From the NCBI GenBank assembly GCA_020437105.1, contig JAGQWR010000014.1, forward strand, positions 1 through 64,000: a DNA stretch of 64,000 nt, in the 5' to 3' direction. The position numbers were made by a program, and so were the translations under genes. This DNA is from Saprospiraceae bacterium (lineage in GTDB: Bacteria > Bacteroidota > Bacteroidia > Chitinophagales > Saprospiraceae). Under the pieces are notes generated by a model, which was not told the DNA's origin, did not search any database, and saw only the letters and a list, made by a program, of their open reading frames with translations. This document shows, piece by piece, positions 12,775 through 61,899 of this stretch. Position 1 is the first letter of the stretch. Every line of letters starts with the position of its first letter.

Positions 12775-15243
12775 ATGCAAGGAATTATCCACTATGAATC
12801 TGTAAACAGCCTGGAAAACTTTGGCGGCAAGGCTGCCGGACTATTTTTTCTTCGGGATCAACAATTCGAAGTACCTGCATTCTACCTTCTGGGGTATGAA
12901 ACGGTGCAAGCCATTATTGAAAAAAAAGCGGGGCTCCCGGAATTGGTAGATGATTGGGTAGCACAACATAAAATAAACCCCGACTCACTATGGGCAGTCC
13001 GCTCCAGTGCACATATTGAAGATGGCAAAGAACAGTCCTTTGCCGGATTATTCTCCTCCGAAATCAACAAGAAGCCAAGCCAACTTCCCAACGCAATAGA
13101 AAACGTCATCACTGCATACCAGCACGTGCAGGAACTGAAATATAACACCTTCGGCCACTTTGATTTTGCCATCATCATCCAGGAGATGTTGAGACCGGAT
13201 TATGCCGGCGTGGTATTCTCGCATAACCCCTTAAATCCTGAAGAAGAACTATGTTATATTAACATTGTACCGGGATTGGGAGAAACACTGGTCAGCGGCA
13301 AAGCAGAGGCCTTTATGGTAACTCAACACCGAAAAAAAAGGAGCTTTTTAAATCCGAAAGAAACTTTTTTTGGAGAACAATTTGCAGGTGATCAAACGAT
13401 TGAAATTGAAGAAAGCGGAACCAGCATTCAGGCAGCAGTAAACAAACATTTAGATGCCCTATATCAGGGTGCCCAAAAACTGGCAAAAGTAAAAGGCTTT
13501 CCGGTAGATATTGAATTTGCCATTGCAGGAGACATCTTATACTGGCTACAGGTCAGACCGATAACCACACCGGAAAAAGAAATCGTTCATACCATCTGGG
13601 ACAATTCAAATATCAATGAAAATTATCCGGGTCTAAGCCTGCCATTAAGTATTTCTTATACCCAAAGGACCTACGGTAAAGGATATTCCGGTATGGCTCG
13701 GTTTTTAGGCATGACAGCAAAGAGCGTAGAACAAAACATGCCCCTGTTTCAAAATATGGTTGGCGGTATTTATGGATCCCTCTATTATAATGTCACCGCC
13801 TGGCAACAACTCCTGTATCAACTGCCTTTTGGAAAAAAAACAAGCTACTGGATCACCCGTATCTGGAATGCTGATGATGCACAATTTAGGCCACCCAAAT
13901 CCCGATCATCACTACTTGGGTATTTGCGATTGAATGGCAATCTCATTCGTTCCTTCCTCTTTTTCAAAAAGCATAAAATGCGTTTTGAAAAGGTGTACTA
14001 TGATGTTTTAACTAATTTCTCGCATGAGCAGCTTGAAAACAAAAGTCAGGAAGAGCTGGTCAGTTATTACTTCGATTTAGAAAAAAGGCTGGGCGACAAT
14101 TGGGTGGCCCCCCTGCTGAATGGATTTTATGCACTGATCCTTTTTTCTACATTAAAAAAAGTATTTCGGAATTCCCGATTATTTGAATCCTACCCAAATT
14201 TTATAAACGATATGCTCTATGCACAGGGAGATGTCGTTTCTGTCCAAATTGTAAAAGACTTTCAAAAGTTAATTGTTCAAATACAGGAAGACAGTTCTTT
14301 GAAATTACTTTTTCAGGCAGATGTTTCCGCCAAATTACTGGAATCTCTTCCGACAACACATCCGGAATTCTGGAAGGACGTTTCGACTTATCTCGATCAA
14401 TTTGGAGAACGGGCACCAGAGAGTGAACTAAAAATGGAAACCCGAAATTACCGGGATGATCCGGTCAAATTTATAGAGTTTCTAAAAACGAATGCTGGCA
14501 TGTCATTCGATCAGAATCGAAAATCATTTTCCTTTGATTATAAAGAAGTAATCCGGAAAGCTTATAAAAATAATCCGCTTAAGCGAATAGCCTTAATCCA
14601 ACTGATTCGGGTAAGTATTCCCCGGATTCGCGACCGGGAGAATTACCGCTTTTTGCGCACCAAATCCTTTCATATCGTTCGGCAGTTATTCCGGGCGATT
14701 GGAAACCAATTATACCTCAACGGCAAGTTGGAATCAGCTTCTGATTTTTTATATTTAAATTTTGAGGAATTAATTGATCCGGCAATAGGTGCGGCCCTTA
14801 GAGATCGAGTTTCCCAACGAAAATTGGAATATAAAAGCTTTGAAAACCAGGTGCATGCCCCACGTTATGCGCAAACAGAATCCGGCCTCCATCCGGTAGA
14901 AAAAAGCGCGGCGAAATTTGCAAAAGGTACACTCAGTGGTACCGGTTGTTGTAGTGGTATCATCACCGCAAAAACAGTAATTATTACCGGCTCAACAATG
15001 GATATCGATAATATCGCCGGAAAAATATTTATCGCAAATCACTTTGAACCGGGTTGGATAAATCTGTTCACCCAGGCAGCCGGCGTCATTTCGGAGCGCG
15101 GAAACCTGTTGAGCCATACCGCCATTTTATGCCGGGAAATGGGCATCCCTTCGATTGTTGGCGTAAAGGGATTAATGGACAGCGTTAAAGAAGGTGATGT
15201 CGTACAGATGAATGGAGGGACAGGGGAGGTAGTTTGGGTTTGA
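12775..15243 (+). CDS. PEP-synthase-family phosphotransferase, rifampin-phosphotransferase-like layout
   Basis: An 822-residue enzyme with three parts. Residues ~1-275 are the PPDK/PEP-synthase ATP-grasp domain (GGKAAGLFFL, the AVRSSAHIEDG loop, and the closing LQVRPITTP). Residues ~290-725 are a long unassigned domain where rifampin phosphotransferase places its acceptor-binding domain. Residues ~735-822 are the swivelling phosphohistidine domain, with the catalytic His at 781 in LLSHTAILCREMGIPSIVG. The PEP/pyruvate barrel of true PEP synthase is absent. It probably phosphorylates a small molecule using ATP via phospho-His; the acceptor is unknown and antibiotic inactivation is only one possibility. 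It is followed by a repeat-bearing gap and then the nucleotidyltransferase operon. Confidence 0.85.
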   Translation: MQGIIHYESVNSLENFGGKAAGLFFLRDQQFEVPAFYLLGYETVQAIIEKKAGLPELVDDWVAQHKINPDSLWAVRSSAHIEDGKEQSFAGLFSSEINKKPSQLPNAIENVITAYQHVQELKYNTFGHFDFAIIIQEMLRPDYAGVVFSHNPLNPEEELCYINIVPGLGETLVSGKAEAFMVTQHRKKRSFLNPKETFFGEQFAGDQTIEIEESGTSIQAAVNKHLDALYQGAQKLAKVKGFPVDIEFAIAGDILYWLQVRPITTPEKEIVHTIWDNSNINENYPGLSLPLSISYTQRTYGKGYSGMARFLGMTAKSVEQNMPLFQNMVGGIYGSLYYNVTAWQQLLYQLPFGKKTSYWITRIWNADDAQFRPPKSRSSLLGYLRLNGNLIRSFLFFKKHKMRFEKVYYDVLTNFSHEQLENKSQEELVSYYFDLEKRLGDNWVAPLLNGFYALILFSTLKKVFRNSRLFESYPNFINDMLYAQGDVVSVQIVKDFQKLIVQIQEDSSLKLLFQADVSAKLLESLPTTHPEFWKDVSTYLDQFGERAPESELKMETRNYRDDPVKFIEFLKTNAGMSFDQNRKSFSFDYKEVIRKAYKNNPLKRIALIQLIRVSIPRIRDRENYRFLRTKSFHIVRQLFRAIGNQLYLNGKLESASDFLYLNFEELIDPAIGAALRDRVSQRKLEYKSFENQVHAPRYAQTESGLHPVEKSAAKFAKGTLSGTGCCSGIITAKTVIITGSTMDIDNIAGKIFIANHFEPGWINLFTQAAGVISERGNLLSHTAILCREMGIPSIVGVKGLMDSVKEGDVVQMNGGTGEVVWV

Positions 15244-15345
15244 GTTTGAGTTTGAGTTTGGCCCGATATGCTATCGGGAGTTGGTTAGCACCGAATTAAA
15301 ACTTAAAAATCAAGAATTAAAAATTAAACTAAGCGTTTTTGGGCA
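15244..15345. repeat. Intergenic word-repeat mosaic, copy 3, with palindrome
   Basis: Begins with GAGTTT repeats, then the palindrome CCCGATATGCTATCGGG (15262-15278), a GTTGGTTAGC word, and AATTAAAACTTAAAAATC-type words. Palindromes of the same type (CCCCGATA...TATCGGGG) occur in the mosaics at 43376 and 48534. Confidence 0.65.
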
Positions 15346-19347: not shown

Positions 19348-19408
19348 GTCCCCAATAATTTCATTCGTATTACATAACTAATAAAGAGAATTACACAATT
19401 CACACGTT

Positions 19409-19568
19409 GAAGTTGTTTAAGAATGCCTGCTGAGGTTCAGGGAATTGAATTTTCATTCCAATTGAGGCTTTTTTTGAGCCGCATAGCAGCGCTACGGGGC
19501 GATAAAAAAACGAAAAGTGGAGTGAAAAGGCTTTTCCGGAAACCAGTGAGGTATTTTTAAACAACTTC
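19409..19568 (+). mobile_element. 160-bp MITE-like palindromic element, copy A
   Basis: Bounded by imperfect 20-bp terminal inverted repeats, GAAGTTGTTTAAGAATGCCT at the left and its near complement (AGGTATTTTTAAACAACTTC) at the right. A second copy of the same length lies at 61707-61866 in opposite orientation. The centre has a conserved hairpin (GCCGCATAGC / GCTACGGGGC). GTT on both sides could be a three-base target duplication. There is no reading frame, so it would depend on a transposase elsewhere. Whether it is a MITE or a structured REP-like repeat is open. Confidence 0.75.
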
Positions 19569-19830
19569 GTTTTGTAAACGCCCTCTTATCACATACCCAA
19601 TCGAAAGTTATTTGGGAACTTTCAGTAATTTTTATTGGCCAGCAAGGCAAAAACCTGCTGGCAAGCCATAGAACTTGACTAAATTTGATATTGAATCCAA
19701 ATCAAAAAAATTTACCGGTTAAAGCTCACACAGTGATCAGTGGGGTATCGTTGTAGGACGCCAAAGAAAAAGATATATCAAGCTTAGAAGGTACTTGGGG
19801 TTGGGTATTGGATTTCATAAAAGAATACCA
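19569..19830. other. Noncoding spacer right of the MITE-like element
   Basis: Within the 523-base gene-free stretch 19308-19830, this part holds only a short hairpin (GCCAGC...GCTGGC at about 19637-19662) without a T-run. No open frame with protein character is visible. Confidence 0.5.
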
Positions 19831-20427: not shown

Positions 20428-20446
20428 TTCTAAATTTCTTCCAAAT
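20428..20446 (+). promoter_or_regulatory. Response-regulator box 1 (direct repeat, 11-bp period)
   Basis: TTCTAAAT-ttc-TTCCAAAT, two 8-bp half-sites one helical turn apart, ending 20 bases before the response-regulator start. The same layout recurs at 22428 and 23243. OmpR-family regulators commonly bind such direct repeats, so autoregulation is inferred. Confidence 0.65.
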
Positions 20447-20466
20447 CCGTCCAGTACTTCGCAGCA

Positions 20467-21141
20467 ATGAAAATTTTGATCATAGAAGACGAAACGGCAT
20501 TGGTTCAGGATATAATAAAATACCTCACCAGTGAGCAATACCTATGCGAATGGGCTTCTGATTACCAGACAGCCATGGAGAAGGTTTCTACCCATGAATA
20601 TGATTGCATCCTGTTGGATTTAATGCTTCCCGGCGGCGATGGTCTTTCCATCCTTAATCAACTAAAAAAGCAAAACAAGCAGGACGGGGTAATCATCCTA
20701 TCAGCTAAAAATTCAATCGAAGATAAAGTCAAAGGGTTGAAGCTAGGCGCAGATGACTATCTGGCCAAACCATTTCACCAGGCCGAGTTAGCCGCTCGTA
20801 TTGAATCCCTCATCAGAAGAAAACAATTTGATAGCAACAATATTATCACCCAAAACGAACTGTCGATAGACATTCATTCCAAGACTGTTACAGTAAATGA
20901 GCATCCGGTAAGTCTAACCAAAAAGGAATATGATCTTCTGCTATTTTTTATCGGAAACAAGAATCGAGTACTTTCAAAAGGCGCTTTGGCAGAGCATCTT
21001 TCCGGAGACTTTGCAGATATGTTTGACAACCATGATTTTGTATATGCGCACGTTAAAAACCTAAAACGAAAGCTAAAAGAAAGTGCGTATGGCGATTATA
21101 TAAAAACCATTTACGGAACCGGCTATAAATGGGAACAATGA
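20467..21141 (+). CDS. OmpR-family response regulator
   Basis: A 224-residue response regulator. The receiver domain (1-~118) has the acidic pair IIEDE, the phospho-acceptor D51 in CILLDLMLPGGDG, and the conserved Lys in DDYLAKPF. The C-terminal winged helix (from ~128) shows SLTKKEYDLLLFFIGNKNRVLSK and the terminal hairpin IKTIYGTGYKWE. It pairs with the histidine kinase whose start overlaps its stop by four bases (ATGA). A direct-repeat box just upstream suggests that it controls its own transcription. Confidence 0.95.
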   Translation: MKILIIEDETALVQDIIKYLTSEQYLCEWASDYQTAMEKVSTHEYDCILLDLMLPGGDGLSILNQLKKQNKQDGVIILSAKNSIEDKVKGLKLGADDYLAKPFHQAELAARIESLIRRKQFDSNNIITQNELSIDIHSKTVTVNEHPVSLTKKEYDLLLFFIGNKNRVLSKGALAEHLSGDFADMFDNHDFVYAHVKNLKRKLKESAYGDYIKTIYGTGYKWEQ

Positions 21142-22424
21142 CCAAACTGCTCAACAGACCCCTCAAAGCCTTTGCGTTTTATGCCTTGGTCATCTTGTTG
21201 ATTAGTGTTCCCGTTTATGTGCTTGTGGTAGATCATATCTGGATTAGTGAACTGGATGAAAACAATTGGTTAACCCTGCAACATACCAAAGAAAGGCTCG
21301 AAACCGGGGTGTTCACCAGAGAAGACTTGGAGCAGATAAACCACATTTGGGGAGAATTGCTTCCTGGGGTTTCAATTACAAAAACGAATGAAGCGGCTAT
21401 TCGTCCAGATAGTGTCTATGAAATCCTTAGACCCCATGAATATGATACGGATGACGGTGCAGGCAGGTTTCGAGGATTAGTTTCTTATCTTAATATCAAC
21501 GAACAGCCTTATCAAATTACCATTGAGACGAATGTAGAAGAAGCTGATGAAACGCTATTGGCAATTGCAATAGTTACGTTCTTCTTTTTTATTCTATTAA
21601 TTGTTGGGTTCATTCTACTTAACCGCAGAATTTCTGCACGTAGCTGGAGGCCTTTTTATCAAACGCTTCATTCGCTGCAATCATTTGACCTGAACAAAGA
21701 TGATAACCTCCACTTGCCTCCTACCGACATCCAAGAATTTCAGGAATTGAACCAATCACTGCACCTGTTAGTCAAAAACAATATTGCTGCCTATCAACAG
21801 CAAAAAACCTTCACAGAAAATGCGTCACACGAGTTGCAAACTCCTATTGCCCTGCTCAAATCAAAACTGGATCTGCTCCTGCAGGAAAAAGAAATAACCC
21901 CCGAAATAGCTGAAATATTAAGTGGGATTGAGGCTCCACTATCCCGGCTTTCCAGAATCAACAAAAACCTGCTCTTATTAGCGAAGGTGGAGAATCAACA
22001 GTATAGTGATAAAGAACAACTGGATATCAAAGAATATGTAGGGGCTGCACTGATCCTTTTTGAAGATTACTTAAATAATAAAAATCTTTTTGTCAGAAAC
22101 TGTATTCAGGACAGCATTTTGATCAATACCAATTCATTTCTGCTTGAAACCCTGCTGCATAATTTACTCTCAAACGCGATCAGGCACACATCGGATGGTG
22201 GACAGATTCGGATCGAATTGCAAAACAGGACGATTTTTATTGCTAACTCCGGGAAGCAGGCTTTGGACGAAAAGCATTTGTTTGACCGATTTTCAAGCAC
22301 CTCAAAAGATAAAATAAGCAGTGGGTTGGGTCTGGCCATCATCAAAGAAATTGTCCTAAAAAACAACTGGCAAGTGAGATATCACTTTGACAATGGCTTC
22401 CACACTTTTGCTGTATCCTTCTAA
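21138..22424 (+). CDS. Sensor histidine kinase
   Basis: A 428-residue membrane sensor kinase. Two transmembrane segments (about residues 11-32 and 141-162) flank a ~110-residue periplasmic sensor. Next come a short linker where no HAMP domain is obvious, the dimerisation/phosphoacceptor segment with the catalytic His at 231 (NASHELQTPIALLKSK), and the ATPase domain with N-box NLLSNAIRH and G-box GLGLAIIKE. The ATG at 21138 overlaps the regulator's stop and is preferred over one at 21129. The stimulus is unknown. Confidence 0.9.
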   Translation: MTKLLNRPLKAFAFYALVILLISVPVYVLVVDHIWISELDENNWLTLQHTKERLETGVFTREDLEQINHIWGELLPGVSITKTNEAAIRPDSVYEILRPHEYDTDDGAGRFRGLVSYLNINEQPYQITIETNVEEADETLLAIAIVTFFFFILLIVGFILLNRRISARSWRPFYQTLHSLQSFDLNKDDNLHLPPTDIQEFQELNQSLHLLVKNNIAAYQQQKTFTENASHELQTPIALLKSKLDLLLQEKEITPEIAEILSGIEAPLSRLSRINKNLLLLAKVENQQYSDKEQLDIKEYVGAALILFEDYLNNKNLFVRNCIQDSILINTNSFLLETLLHNLLSNAIRHTSDGGQIRIELQNRTIFIANSGKQALDEKHLFDRFSSTSKDKISSGLGLAIIKEIVLKNNWQVRYHFDNGFHTFAVSF

Positions 22425-22427
22425 AAA

Positions 22428-22446
22428 TTCTAAATGTCTTCTAAAT
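22428..22446 (+). promoter_or_regulatory. Response-regulator box 2 (perfect direct repeat)
   Basis: TTCTAAAT-gtc-TTCTAAAT is a perfect 8-bp direct repeat at 11-bp spacing. It starts four bases after the kinase stop and ends 30 bases before the next gene. It is the cleanest of the three boxes. Confidence 0.7.
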
Positions 22447-22476
22447 CGATAAATAGTTTTGAGCAAAAATGTACAA

Positions 22477-23232
22477 ATGGCAAAACTAAACAAGGTAGCT
22501 CAGATCACTCTGCTTTTCTGGCTGATGAAAATCATCGCCACCACCTTGGGCGAAACATTTGGCGATTATTTATCCATGACGCTGGATTATGGATATGGAT
22601 TCAGCCTGGGGATTACAGCGGCAGCATTCCTGTCTGTTTTAGCTATCCAGCTATTTTCCAACAAATACATCCCGTTTATTTATTGGCTGGTAATCATTGC
22701 AACGACCACATTGGGAACAGAAATTTCCGATTTTATTGACCGAAGCCTGCATTTGGGCTATACCGCTGGCAGTATTTTATTATTTGTCTGTTTGGCGGGC
22801 ACGCTATTTTTATGGTTCAGAAAGTTTAAGAATCTAACTGTCTTCCCAATTGTGGACAGGCAAAAAGAAATGTACTATTGGATCGCCATTCTGTTTTCAA
22901 ACAGCCTGGGAACTGCGTTTGGAGACTACCTGAGTGATATTGCAGGACTCAGCTATCTGCAAGGCGCTCTGGTTACCTCCGGGGTGATTATAGCGGTTAT
23001 TTTACTGCACTATACCACCAAAATCAATGAAATCTTTCTGTTTTGGCTCGCCTTTATTTTCACCCGGCCTTTCGGAGCAACATTTGGAGATTTCCTGACC
23101 AAACCACTCGCGAGTGGTGGATTAGATCTGGGTACCCTGGCTGCCTCTGTGGTTTCCCTTGGGCTGCTGGTCCTGCTTATTATTATTGCCCATTTTCAAC
23201 TTCCTAAACAAGGGGCTCTCGCAGAAAAATAA
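22477..23232 (+). CDS. COG4705-like multi-pass membrane protein
   Basis: A 251-residue integral membrane protein with about eight hydrophobic helices, similar to the COG4705 family of uncharacterised membrane proteins. A motif of the form LGxxxGDxL appears four times: TLGETFGDYL (23-32), TLGTEISDFI (78-87), SLGTAFGDYL (143-152) and PFGATFGDFL (198-207). The spacing 55/65/55 points to an internally duplicated fold with conserved acidic residues in the membrane, as in small transporters or channels. The start is ATG 22477. It lies directly behind the two-component genes and has a regulator box upstream. Substrate unknown. Confidence 0.8.
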   Translation: MAKLNKVAQITLLFWLMKIIATTLGETFGDYLSMTLDYGYGFSLGITAAAFLSVLAIQLFSNKYIPFIYWLVIIATTTLGTEISDFIDRSLHLGYTAGSILLFVCLAGTLFLWFRKFKNLTVFPIVDRQKEMYYWIAILFSNSLGTAFGDYLSDIAGLSYLQGALVTSGVIIAVILLHYTTKINEIFLFWLAFIFTRPFGATFGDFLTKPLASGGLDLGTLAASVVSLGLLVLLIIIAHFQLPKQGALAEK

Positions 23233-23242
23233 GACAACAACC

Positions 23243-23261
23243 CTTAAAATTTCTTCCAATT
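23243..23261 (+). promoter_or_regulatory. Response-regulator box 3 (degenerate direct repeat)
   Basis: CTTAAAAT-ttc-TTCCAATT keeps the 11-bp period and the TTC spacer of box 1 but is less exact. It ends 42 bases before the PepSY-like lipoprotein gene. Confidence 0.5.
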
Positions 23262-23303
23262 CATATTGGATGTTTGTAAACAAACTTTAAAAGACAATTA
23301 AAA

Positions 23304-23762
23304 ATGGAAAACTTAATGATTCTTGCAGTATTTTCGGTGGTATTTTCTATGCAATCATGTACTCAGAATTCAGACGATAAAGATGTTCCTGAAAAGGTAT
23401 TAACTACATTTAATGCCAAATTTCCGGATGCCCGAAAAGAGGAATGGGAAATGGAAGACGAAACAACATGGGAAGCTGAGTTTAAGCTGAATGGTAAAGC
23501 GTATTCAGCAAATTTCAAAACCAATGGAGATTGGTTGGAAACAGAATATGAAATTAAAAAATCAGATATCCCTGCTAATATCCTTTCCATACTTAACCAA
23601 AATTTCACTGATTATGAGATTGATGAAGCAGAAATTGCCGAGTCCCCTCTGGGTAAATCCTATGAAATGGAGATTGAGGTCGGCGAAGAAGAATTTGAAA
23701 TTGTTATTGACGCTCAGGGAAAATTAACAAAGCAAGTTGAACATGAAGATGATAAGGATTAA
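23304..23762 (+). CDS. PepSY-like periplasmic lipoprotein
   Basis: A 152-residue exported protein with a lipobox-like FSMQSC (Cys 19). It has two PepSY-like halves: VLTTFNAKFPDARKEEWEME...WEAEFKLNGKAYSANFKTNGD and ILSILNQNFTDYEIDEAEI...YEMEIEVGEEEFEIVIDAQG. This is the PF11396-like family of small Bacteroidota periplasmic proteins. It is strongly acidic. It often accompanies two-component systems, and the shared upstream box supports regulation by the system at 20.5 kb. Role unknown. Confidence 0.85.
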   Translation: MENLMILAVFSVVFSMQSCTQNSDDKDVPEKVLTTFNAKFPDARKEEWEMEDETTWEAEFKLNGKAYSANFKTNGDWLETEYEIKKSDIPANILSILNQNFTDYEIDEAEIAESPLGKSYEMEIEVGEEEFEIVIDAQGKLTKQVEHEDDKD

Positions 23763-23888
23763 AAGAGCTTTTTTTTCATGGATGATGCTACTTCCTAATG
23801 GACTTGTACACTACTGCATCCAAAAGCAATTCCCTAACACATTCTTATTTACCCAAACTAAATTGGTCTGGGCATAAAATTTATAAAC

Positions 23889-25429: not shown

Positions 25430-27760
25430 TTAAACTCGGGCGTTTAACATTTCCAACATCCGAAACGCATTATTCATTATCCGTTCAGAAAAGGCATATC
25501 GATCTAAAATACCAGCTACTTCATAAAACGATACCCGGGTAATTAAATAAACTTTTAAAGAATAAACATAGGCAGCACACCACTCTTCCCAGCCAGGTTT
25601 TAAGGCAGGGTACAACCCATGGTGAAAGTTCAACCAGAAAAAAAACTGCTCCTCGGTAAACCCTTCTTCTAATACAAAACTCAACAGTTCTACAATATCT
25701 CTATGCGGAATATCCATAACCGCTAATTCCCAATCATAAATACAAGGCCTTCCATCTTTTCGGATAGCAATATTTCTGGAATTAAAATCATTGTGAATAA
25801 TCGTGGACCCGACCTTTAGGTTTGAACGATCAAATTCTAATTGACCAATATAAATTAATAAAGACTGGATACGATCTTTACTTAAATCATCAGCTGCCTC
25901 TTTAAGCATGATGGATACCAACTTCTCATAGAGGGGCAGAGCATTCCAGGGTTCAAAAATTTGAACTTCTTTAATTTTATTCCTTTGAGTTGCATCCTCA
26001 AAATGTTGATGCACCTTCGTAATAGCCTTGATCGTATCCCCGATTTGTTTCTCTGTCCACCACGATGGTTTCTTTTGGGAATTAATATGTTCAAGTGCAT
26101 GATCTTCCAAAAACTCTTCTGCAAAAAGATAAATCTCTCTTTTTTGGTTAATTGCTTTTCCGAAATATCCGGGCATACAATCAAACCCTGCCTGGTCCAG
26201 GTGCTCATAAAGTTTTATTTCCTTAATATGGCAGTTAGAATATTCCAGATGTTGCCGATAGCGATTTAACAGATCAGATAGTTTAGTATCAATAGATGCT
26301 GCCATTAAATGCAAACCCTTTACGACTTCGAGATCGAGGGCTTTCGATTTCAATATGACTTTTTTGACTCCAACTCCTCCCCCACTATGGTACTTAATCT
26401 CTACCGGAATAAATCCGATTAATTTTTTACTTACCCGATTCGTCAAATTTGTAATGACGCCATTATCGACGATTCCTCCCGACAAAATAGTTATCGAATC
26501 TATCTCCCCTATATCCATTTTTTGCTTGAAAATAGCTTCCAGGAATTCTGTCGTAATTTCCGAACGGGTCAGCCAGTTTACCGGTTTATTGCGGCCCAAT
26601 TTCTCATGCGCTTTCGCGAATTCTCCGCTAACAATCGCAGCATAAGTAGAAACTTCCAATGCAAGTGCAAAACCAGCAATCAATTCAGCAAAACGCTTAA
26701 TTTTCCCGGAGCCTTTACAACCCATTAATTCAAGGGCTTCAGTCTGGCGTGCCAGATTGGTCCCTCCGCCTACTGTACCTATAACCAGCGAAGGCAGGGT
26801 TAGCGACAAGCTTAGCCCTGCCTCTGTTTTTTCGACATGAAAAATTCCAACAGCTGATTCGTGAACCGAAGCCATATCCTGTCCGGTGGCCATAAAAATA
26901 GCAGCGATTGCATTAGCTACATTGATATTATATCCCACCATCCCGTCTTCCTTACTAAGTAAGACGGAAGGTTTAAAACAACGAAAAATCGCCTCCGAGG
27001 TGGAGCGCAACACTTTTTGAATCGTTTCCTCTTTTAGAAAAGCATGGGCCGTTACATGGATGCCGCGTCCTTCCGTAATCGAATAATTAGATATCTTTTT
27101 ATCTGAAGAACCATTTCCTTCAATAATATAATAAGGAATTTCTATTCCGGTTTCCTGCTGAAAATGATCCACGATCCACAACATTGCGTGCCAGGTGCAG
27201 GTGGTCGTCATATTCTGACCAGCTGCATCGCCCGTTTGAAAAACAAATCGCAGGTGCACCGTATTTTCAACCTTAAAGGGTTGCAGGCTTTTCAGGGAAG
27301 CGTGGTTGGAGTGCTCTTCTGCCACCTGTTTAATCTTCTGGAATTCATGTGGCACCCATTTTTCAAATAGGGCCGCATCTGCCAGACTGGTAAAAAGAAA
27401 CATCGGGGCCCGGATCATTTTTTGCTGCTTCACTTCAGCCCAAAAACCTCCACTTTGGCTCAGGGCTTTTGCTCCCCTGTTCATACTGGCAACCAGGGCA
27501 CCTTCCAGTGTCCCGGCCACGGTATATGCTAATTCCTGCTGCCCGGCACTGGTATTGTAGAGTATCGGACCAACAACTCCAAGCGGTATCTCTATAGATC
27601 CAACAAATGACTCAATATTTGTCCGGATATGTTCCGGTTCCAGCGTCGTATTGCTTATGCTTTTTAGGGGATGGCCGAGCTCTTTTAAAAAGTCTTGGCG
27701 GGCTTTAATTCCAGAGTGCGAATTAAGGCCTCGGCCCGGAATGATCGGAATATCGGACAT
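25430..27760 (-). CDS. HMG-CoA reductase fused to APH-like kinase domain
   Basis: A 776-residue two-domain protein. Residues ~1-400 are HMG-CoA reductase of the class I type: GTLEGALVASMNRG (catalytic Glu 86), SDKKISNYSITEGRG (DKK at 220-222), GQDMASVHES (Asp 295), GTVGGGTNLARQ, and AKAHEKLGRNKP (His 385). Residues ~425-776 are an aminoglycoside/choline-kinase-like fold: a VILKSK strand (Lys 471), IIHNDFNSRN (H656, D658, N663) and CIYDWELA (D676). HMG-CoA reductase makes mevalonate for isoprenoids. All key residues of both halves appear intact and the frame is uninterrupted, so this is a real fusion. Phosphorylation of mevalonate by the kinase half is an attractive but untested idea. No other mevalonate genes are nearby. 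Confidence 0.9.
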   Translation of the reverse strand: MSDIPIIPGRGLNSHSGIKARQDFLKELGHPLKSISNTTLEPEHIRTNIESFVGSIEIPLGVVGPILYNTSAGQQELAYTVAGTLEGALVASMNRGAKALSQSGGFWAEVKQQKMIRAPMFLFTSLADAALFEKWVPHEFQKIKQVAEEHSNHASLKSLQPFKVENTVHLRFVFQTGDAAGQNMTTTCTWHAMLWIVDHFQQETGIEIPYYIIEGNGSSDKKISNYSITEGRGIHVTAHAFLKEETIQKVLRSTSEAIFRCFKPSVLLSKEDGMVGYNINVANAIAAIFMATGQDMASVHESAVGIFHVEKTEAGLSLSLTLPSLVIGTVGGGTNLARQTEALELMGCKGSGKIKRFAELIAGFALALEVSTYAAIVSGEFAKAHEKLGRNKPVNWLTRSEITTEFLEAIFKQKMDIGEIDSITILSGGIVDNGVITNLTNRVSKKLIGFIPVEIKYHSGGGVGVKKVILKSKALDLEVVKGLHLMAASIDTKLSDLLNRYRQHLEYSNCHIKEIKLYEHLDQAGFDCMPGYFGKAINQKREIYLFAEEFLEDHALEHINSQKKPSWWTEKQIGDTIKAITKVHQHFEDATQRNKIKEVQIFEPWNALPLYEKLVSIMLKEAADDLSKDRIQSLLIYIGQLEFDRSNLKVGSTIIHNDFNSRNIAIRKDGRPCIYDWELAVMDIPHRDIVELLSFVLEEGFTEEQFFFWLNFHHGLYPALKPGWEEWCAAYVYSLKVYLITRVSFYEVAGILDRYAFSERIMNNAFRMLEMLNARV

Positions 27761-61706: not shown

Positions 61707-61866
61707 GAAGTTGTTTAAAAATACCTCACTGGTTTCCGGAAAAGCCTTTTCAACCCACTTTTCGTTTTTTTATCGCCACGTAGCACTACTATGCGGCTCA
61801 AAAAAAGCCTCCATTGGAATGAAAATTCAATTCCCGAAATTTCAGCAGGCATTCTTAAACAATTTC
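61707..61866 (-). mobile_element. 160-bp MITE-like palindromic element, copy B
   Basis: Same length and nearly the same sequence as 19409-19568, in reverse orientation. It has GAAGTTGTTTAAAAATACCT at its left end and the complement of GAAATTGTTTAAGAATGCCT at its right end. The central hairpin persists with substitutions that partly preserve pairing (GCCGCATAGT / GCTACGTGGC). It lies 33 bases before the symporter gene, so it may carry or disturb that gene's promoter. No target duplication is obvious. Confidence 0.75.
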
Positions 61867-61899
61867 ATATTGTAATTTTTACACCAAGACCATTAAACT

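Follow-up and report, generated by a model that had tools for sequence, protein, structure and literature searches.

The DNA analyzed here, termed the window, is a stretch of 64,000 nucleotides from a Saprospiraceae bacterium (contig JAGQWR010000014.1). It contains a module of four genes, all on the + strand, which encode, in this order, a response regulator (RR), a histidine kinase (HK), a DUF347 membrane protein and a PepSY-like, probable lipoprotein. The genes, the three direct-repeat boxes and the -7-like elements that follow the boxes are:

20428..20446, +, box 1, TTCTAAATTTCTTCCAAAT, exact match to the box pattern, predicted RR operator for autoregulation
20454..20461, +, weak -7-like element GTACTTCG after box 1, positioned as in orthologues
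20467..21141, +, RR of the OmpR/PhoB type with Response_reg and Trans_reg_C domains (domain search)
21129..22424, +, sensor HK of the NCBIfam PorY family NF052314 (413.7 bits, cutoff 350)
22428..22446, +, box 2, TTCTAAATGTCTTCTAAAT, perfect 8-bp direct repeat with 11-bp period, between the HK stop and DUF347
22454..22461, +, -7 element TAGTTTTG after box 2, consensus TAnnTTTG
22477..23232, +, DUF347 (PF03988) membrane protein, four repeats, eight predicted transmembrane helices
23243..23261, +, box 3, CTTAAAATTTCTTCCAATT, left half degenerate, right half good
23269..23276, +, -7-like element GATGTTTG after box 3
23304..23762, +, PepSY-like (PF11396) periplasmic protein, probable lipoprotein (domain search; lipobox by eye)

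The RR matches PF00072 (100.8 bits) and the winged-helix family PF00486 (60.9 bits). It reached no equivalog cutoff among the NCBIfam models listed, and since it scores 172.4 bits with its second-best model, PmrA, against a cutoff of 330, it is not a PmrA. The RR and HK genes share an overlap of 13 bp. When the periplasmic domain of the HK was checked for the ExxE metal motif of the PmrAB/ColRS type, we noted an ExDE sequence (ELDE) just after the first transmembrane helix, which is present in the window and in close relatives, varies elsewhere and lies at a position where acidic residues are common. The third protein, called COG4705-like in an earlier interpretation of the DNA alone (the sequence-only reading), belongs to DUF347 (PF03988, 192 bits over four stretches, above the gathering score). 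Its start is placed at ATG 22477 by orthology; the open reading frame itself opens at TTG 22459. The PepSY-like identity proposed for the fourth protein agrees with a PF11396 match of 49.5 bits (gathering score 28.3), and FSMQSC near its N-terminus was read by eye as a lipobox.

The sequence-only reading had also proposed that the RR, DUF347 and PepSY-like genes are each preceded by the pattern TTCTAAAT-N3-TTCYAAWT with an 11-bp period. The period is correct, and the boxes at 20428 and 22428 match exactly, the latter being a perfect repeat with 0 mismatches also to the combined box and -7 pattern. For the box at 23243, however, the proposal holds for the right half only: the left half, CTTAAAAT, carries all three mismatches, so box 3 is not the motif as stated. 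Taken alone it is within chance, with nine matches in the window at ≤3 mismatches compared to 6.6 expected, and it scores 9.1-12.7 bits in weight models. It is rescued by its -7 context, boxes 1-3 sharing one spacing to a -7-like TTTG or TTCG, and by strong boxes at the equivalent place in orthologous PepSY genes. The element GTACTTCG after box 1 fits TAnnTTTG poorly; the end of box 1 lies 20 nt from the RR start codon, a distance that is equal in orthologues.

Genome-wide scans, which were pattern searches rather than weight-matrix scans, covered the 5.27 Mb and 229 contigs of the source genome. Exact matches to the box pattern occur only at 20428 and 22428, with 0.056 expected under an order-2 Markov model of the window; random occurrence throughout the genome, which had been named beforehand as an argument against a regulon, was not what we found. 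The combined box and -7 pattern at ≤3 mismatches recovers the three promoter sites of the window and one match inside an unrelated gene, and gives zero matches in the reversed control. This combined pattern was composed after the three sites had been seen, so it gauges exclusivity and not discovery. The same scan found no lipid-modifying gene with a box elsewhere in the source genome. Matches to the box with 1-2 mismatches were rejected as regulon candidates, as they are mostly intragenic. As judged by these scans, the regulon in the source genome appears to consist of three promoters at one locus. Separately, a stretch close to a palindrome, 'actactgcatccaaaagcaattcc', is common to the window (about 23805-23845) and to L012:1450-1560, and some of the 2-mismatch box matches (L012, perhaps C227:22089) may sit in such repeats and not be operators.

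DUF347 genes of other genomes were fetched with an alignment query; a query with a single DUF347 sequence retrieved no relatives. A homologous RR-HK pair lies within about 6 kb of DUF347 in 32 of 97 loci, which are spread over the Bacteroidota and come from Marivirga, Cyclobacteriaceae, Algoriphagus, Chryseobacterium, Edaphocola, Maribacter, Nonlabens, Flavobacterium and others. The closest are L091 of Marivirga atlantica (RR 83%, HK 60%, DUF347 79% and PepSY 67% identity) and L092 (RR 84%, HK 68%). All 32 DUF347 loci with a two-component system (TCS) carry at least one box of matching geometry, that is, two half-sites 11 bp apart, 6-8 bp before TAnnTTTG. Inspection of orthologous loci in other genera, the second point on which the regulon was to be judged, revealed boxes upstream of the RR, DUF347 and PepSY genes, such as TTCTAAATTTCTTCCAATT before the DUF347 gene of L092 and again TTCTAAATGTCTTCTAAAT before the PepSY gene of L108. 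Moreover, de novo expectation maximization on 81 RR, DUF347 and PepSY upstream regions yielded A.TTCAAAATTTCTTCAAAATT, with a log-likelihood of 380 compared to 85 for control upstream regions. When the window and the five loci nearest to it were left out and the model was estimated anew, albeit starting from the full model, which is a small leak, box 2 ranked first and box 1 second of all positions in the 64 kb, and box 3 came seventh with 9.1 bits, which is within noise alone. An independent test used the original pattern, which derives from the window only, on the other loci at ≤2 mismatches: it gave 27 matches in 21.3 kb of RR, DUF347 and PepSY promoters and 39 in 2,169 kb elsewhere, a 70-fold difference in which the kinship of loci is ignored. 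Conservation of the boxes and their lack of scatter thus support the regulon reading. In three loci a second DUF347 paralogue, about 33% identical, follows the first in tandem (L113:6740-7459, L158:6740-7468 and L167:6729-7454).

Across loci, TAnnTT[T/G] starts 6-7 nt past a 22-bp box in 47 of 77 sites. This spacing means that the box covers the -33 region, where an OmpR-type dimer would contact the polymerase. In the group to which the window belongs (L070, L091, L092, L137 and L163; window 20447-20467), the RR start codon lies 17-19 nt past the 22-bp box. An RR mRNA with almost no leader is accordingly predicted, as a conserved trait across genera. Flavobacteriaceae have a related box dialect, CTTTAAGAATTTCTTTAGAATC, and there the recognition helix of the RR reads FDFIYVHINNLR instead of HDFVYAHVKNLK. 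Such a co-change is as expected if the RR reads the box, and both changes may go back to a single ancestral event. Direct binding of the box by the local RR, a prediction from sequence, is supported by both the -7 position and the helix co-change. In the window's own family, PorY-type TCSs without a link to DUF347 have a box of similar kind 40-44 bp upstream of the RR gene, so this type of operator appears to be a feature of a wider kinase-regulator family, and autoregulation is apparently general in PorY-type TCSs. A third box dialect, CTTCAAATTTnCCTCAAAATC, was seen upstream of a paralogous PorY-type RR in L037, L039, L040, L041 and L042.

The neighbours in the TCS loci include PAP2 phosphatases, DAGK, GT2, LAB_N, an 800-aa OMP_b-brl_3 barrel, sulfatase-fold transferases, for which phosphoglycerol transferase and LtaS are the best named models, and PMT_2, for which it is lipid IV(A) aminoarabinosyltransferase, the scores in both cases staying below cutoff; one Chryseobacterium-type locus carries an efflux set. 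Using a box model trained only on RR, DUF347 and PepSY promoters, we found a box before 31 of 82 envelope genes in the TCS loci compared to 5 of 110 other genes (p 4e-9, ignoring the kinship of loci). In these related loci it precedes 10 of 11 EptA/LtaS-like sulfatases and 8 of 23 PAP2 phosphatases, and elsewhere also glycosyltransferases (GT2/ArnT-like) and outer-membrane proteins. Genes for lipid or undecaprenyl-phosphate metabolism are present in 28 of the 32 TCS loci. Furthermore, in Acinetobacter an unrelated RR, whose best model is PmrA, and an HK precede DUF347 and a PAP2 phosphatase, which shows that DUF347 joined envelope regulators more than once. The module in the source genome is a minimal accessory version from which these lipid-modifying partners are absent, and with no boxed partners here a role in lipid A would be assigned by association only.

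The box, its geometry, its exclusivity, its conservation and its association with certain genes are established computationally. Conservation, exclusivity, the -7 position and the helix co-change all favour the earlier proposal that the RR controls itself and both envelope proteins as one module. In our view this is quite probably a compact, self-contained and autoregulated two-component module of the PmrAB/ColRS kind for envelope stress, in which the RR would activate the RR-HK, DUF347 and PepSY promoters. The PorY-family kinase would sense an envelope signal and phosphorylate the adjacent OmpR-type regulator, a dimer of which would bind head-to-tail to two TTCTAAAT half-sites one helical turn apart. 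As the box lies over the -33 region, the RR would substitute for the -33 element and, presumably as an activator, drive transcription from TAnnTTTG 6-8 bp downstream. Such activation would feed back on RR-HK and induce DUF347 and the PepSY-like lipoprotein, for which we infer envelope functions. The stimulus, which the sequence-only reading had left as unknown, is narrowed by association to envelope or lipid A stress, and by analogy it is likely to be stress from metal or cationic peptides. With boxes before sulfatases, PAP2 phosphatases, transferases and a barrel elsewhere, action of the PmrAB or ColRS type is most likely: the module would sense excess metal or cationic agents that attack the envelope, and in response would alter lipid A or envelope phosphates.

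Four other explanations were weighed against activation by the local RR. The boxes could be real operators from which the RR represses, as they overlap the -33 region and the core promoter immediately before the -7 element. We consider this unlikely, because the near-constant spacing to -7 suits an activator that replaces the -33 element and boxes also lie upstream of many dispersed genes for lipid modification. PhoB/PmrA-type regulators at such a position usually activate. It is very unlikely that the operators belong to a different, paralogous regulator which the local RR merely adjoins: PorY-type TCS paralogues do have boxes of this sort upstream of their own RR genes, so the motif is common to the regulator family, but the source genome has one HK match only at E below 1e-40, its boxes are confined to the module locus, and box dialect and RR recognition helix (HDFVYAHVKNLK or FDFIYVHINNLR) co-vary. 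A real regulon whose purpose is control of type IX secretion (T9SS), as the PorY family name implies, would fit the HK score above the family cutoff and the control of T9SS by PorXY in Porphyromonas gingivalis (PMC4800418). This, too, is highly improbable: PorX has no DNA-binding domain, its gene lies away from that of PorY, and it acts via SigP (PMC4800418), whereas here an adjacent OmpR-type RR with Trans_reg_C is combined with direct-repeat boxes before envelope genes, and no T9SS gene was noticed among those genes with boxes in the TCS loci that were listed or scanned with Pfam. Finally, we give hardly any credence to a chance similarity of AT-rich promoters without a regulatory role, which box 3 alone and the general likeness of such promoters would allow, since genome-wide exclusivity, the weak control motif and cross-genus conservation at a fixed distance to -7 speak against it, the last of these, at the level of sequence comparison, already contradicting it.

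The preferred reading, activation by the local RR, places the module next to several known systems. ColRS of Pseudomonas putida likewise combines an OmpR-type RR and an HK that adjoin membrane genes with an operator of two direct repeats. According to the accessible parts of the sources, ColR controls PAP2 and DgkA genes via imperfect direct repeats (PMC2689224), its regulon extends to lipid A modification, and the system senses metal excess, with Zn, Fe, Mn and Cd as its signals (PMC4074579). The same parts show a different operator, TTTTTCAC, and promoter type, note no DUF347 or PepSY-like member, and predict a broad regulon of over 40 genes, in contrast to the three promoters at one locus found here. 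PmrAB (BasSR) of enterobacteria and Acinetobacter resembles the module in that PmrA is among the best models for the window RR and for the DUF347-linked Acinetobacter RR, and effectors like its EptA, ArnT and PAP2-type enzymes recur in the related Bacteroidota loci; the window HK, however, is of another subfamily. With PorXY-SigP the module shares the PorY family of its HK.

A literature search, which extended to sources other than subscription papers, found no description of such a regulon, and a coevolution study of Flavobacterium showed no link to the module. An autoregulated OmpR-type regulon is of a known kind; its use lies in tying DUF347 and PF11396, both families of unknown function, to a defined envelope-stress regulon. 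For kinases of a family whose known role is otherwise T9SS control in one pathogen, the boxes also supply an operator code that can be tested, and the system could be the Bacteroidota equivalent of the lipid A remodelling of Proteobacteria under metal or cationic-peptide stress.

The AlphaFold model of the DUF347 protein (pLDDT 89) has eight helices, and its four repeats carry the conserved acidic motifs GETxGD, GTEISD, GTAFGD and GATFGD. A Foldseek search with this model gave no significant match (best E 0.35), and VIA-align reached a Z of at most 7.0, with 133 of 251 residues aligned on half of MFS transporters. As no solved fold matches convincingly, no function is deduced from the fold. 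In Frankia and Bacillus, where DUF347 likewise adjoins a PAP2/undecaprenyl phosphatase, metal export in concert with UppP has been suggested as its part in lead resistance (PMC4531530); in the accessible part of that source the function is likewise given as a proposal, and a two-component box is not described. The published text gave no support for XAC1347, a ColRS-regulated Xanthomonas protein, as a DUF347 protein. A tentative and rather doubtful proposal is that PorY-family kinases mostly act with adjacent DNA-binding regulators and constitute, throughout the Bacteroidota, a counterpart of PmrAB/ColRS that has an operator code of its own. In this proposal DUF347 would be the conserved effector and would move either a divalent metal or a carrier of the lipid-phosphate type, for instance undecaprenyl phosphate. 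If true, such transport would explain the recurrent pairing with PAP2 phosphatases across phyla.

Regarding the origin of the module, its four genes have no DNA match in the single congeneric genome searched, and the best HK match among 36 genomes sampled from the same genus and family is 37% identical. In a tree of HK sequences the kinase of the window falls among those of Marivirga and Cyclobacteriaceae (SH-aLRT 98), apart from the kinases of its own family. The simplest reading is that the module and its operators were apparently acquired horizontally from relatives among the Cytophagales. In the closest loci an 805-aa outer-membrane barrel follows PepSY; an orthologue in the source genome is not claimed, as the search of that genome gave only 32%-identical paralogues. 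The window also contains dispersed repeats. A palindromic element of about 160 bp (19401-19575 and 61707-61867), which is MITE/REP-like and folds into one long hairpin (z -5.9), is present in about 15 near-full copies at 80-98% in the source genome, while the congeneric genome has about 12; one of the window copies lies just upstream of the module. A second short repeat (about 15217-15327) occurs in many places in the congeneric genome. Finally, positions 25430-27760 on the - strand encode an HMG-CoA reductase that carries, as a C-terminal fusion, an APH/choline-kinase-like phosphotransferase domain.
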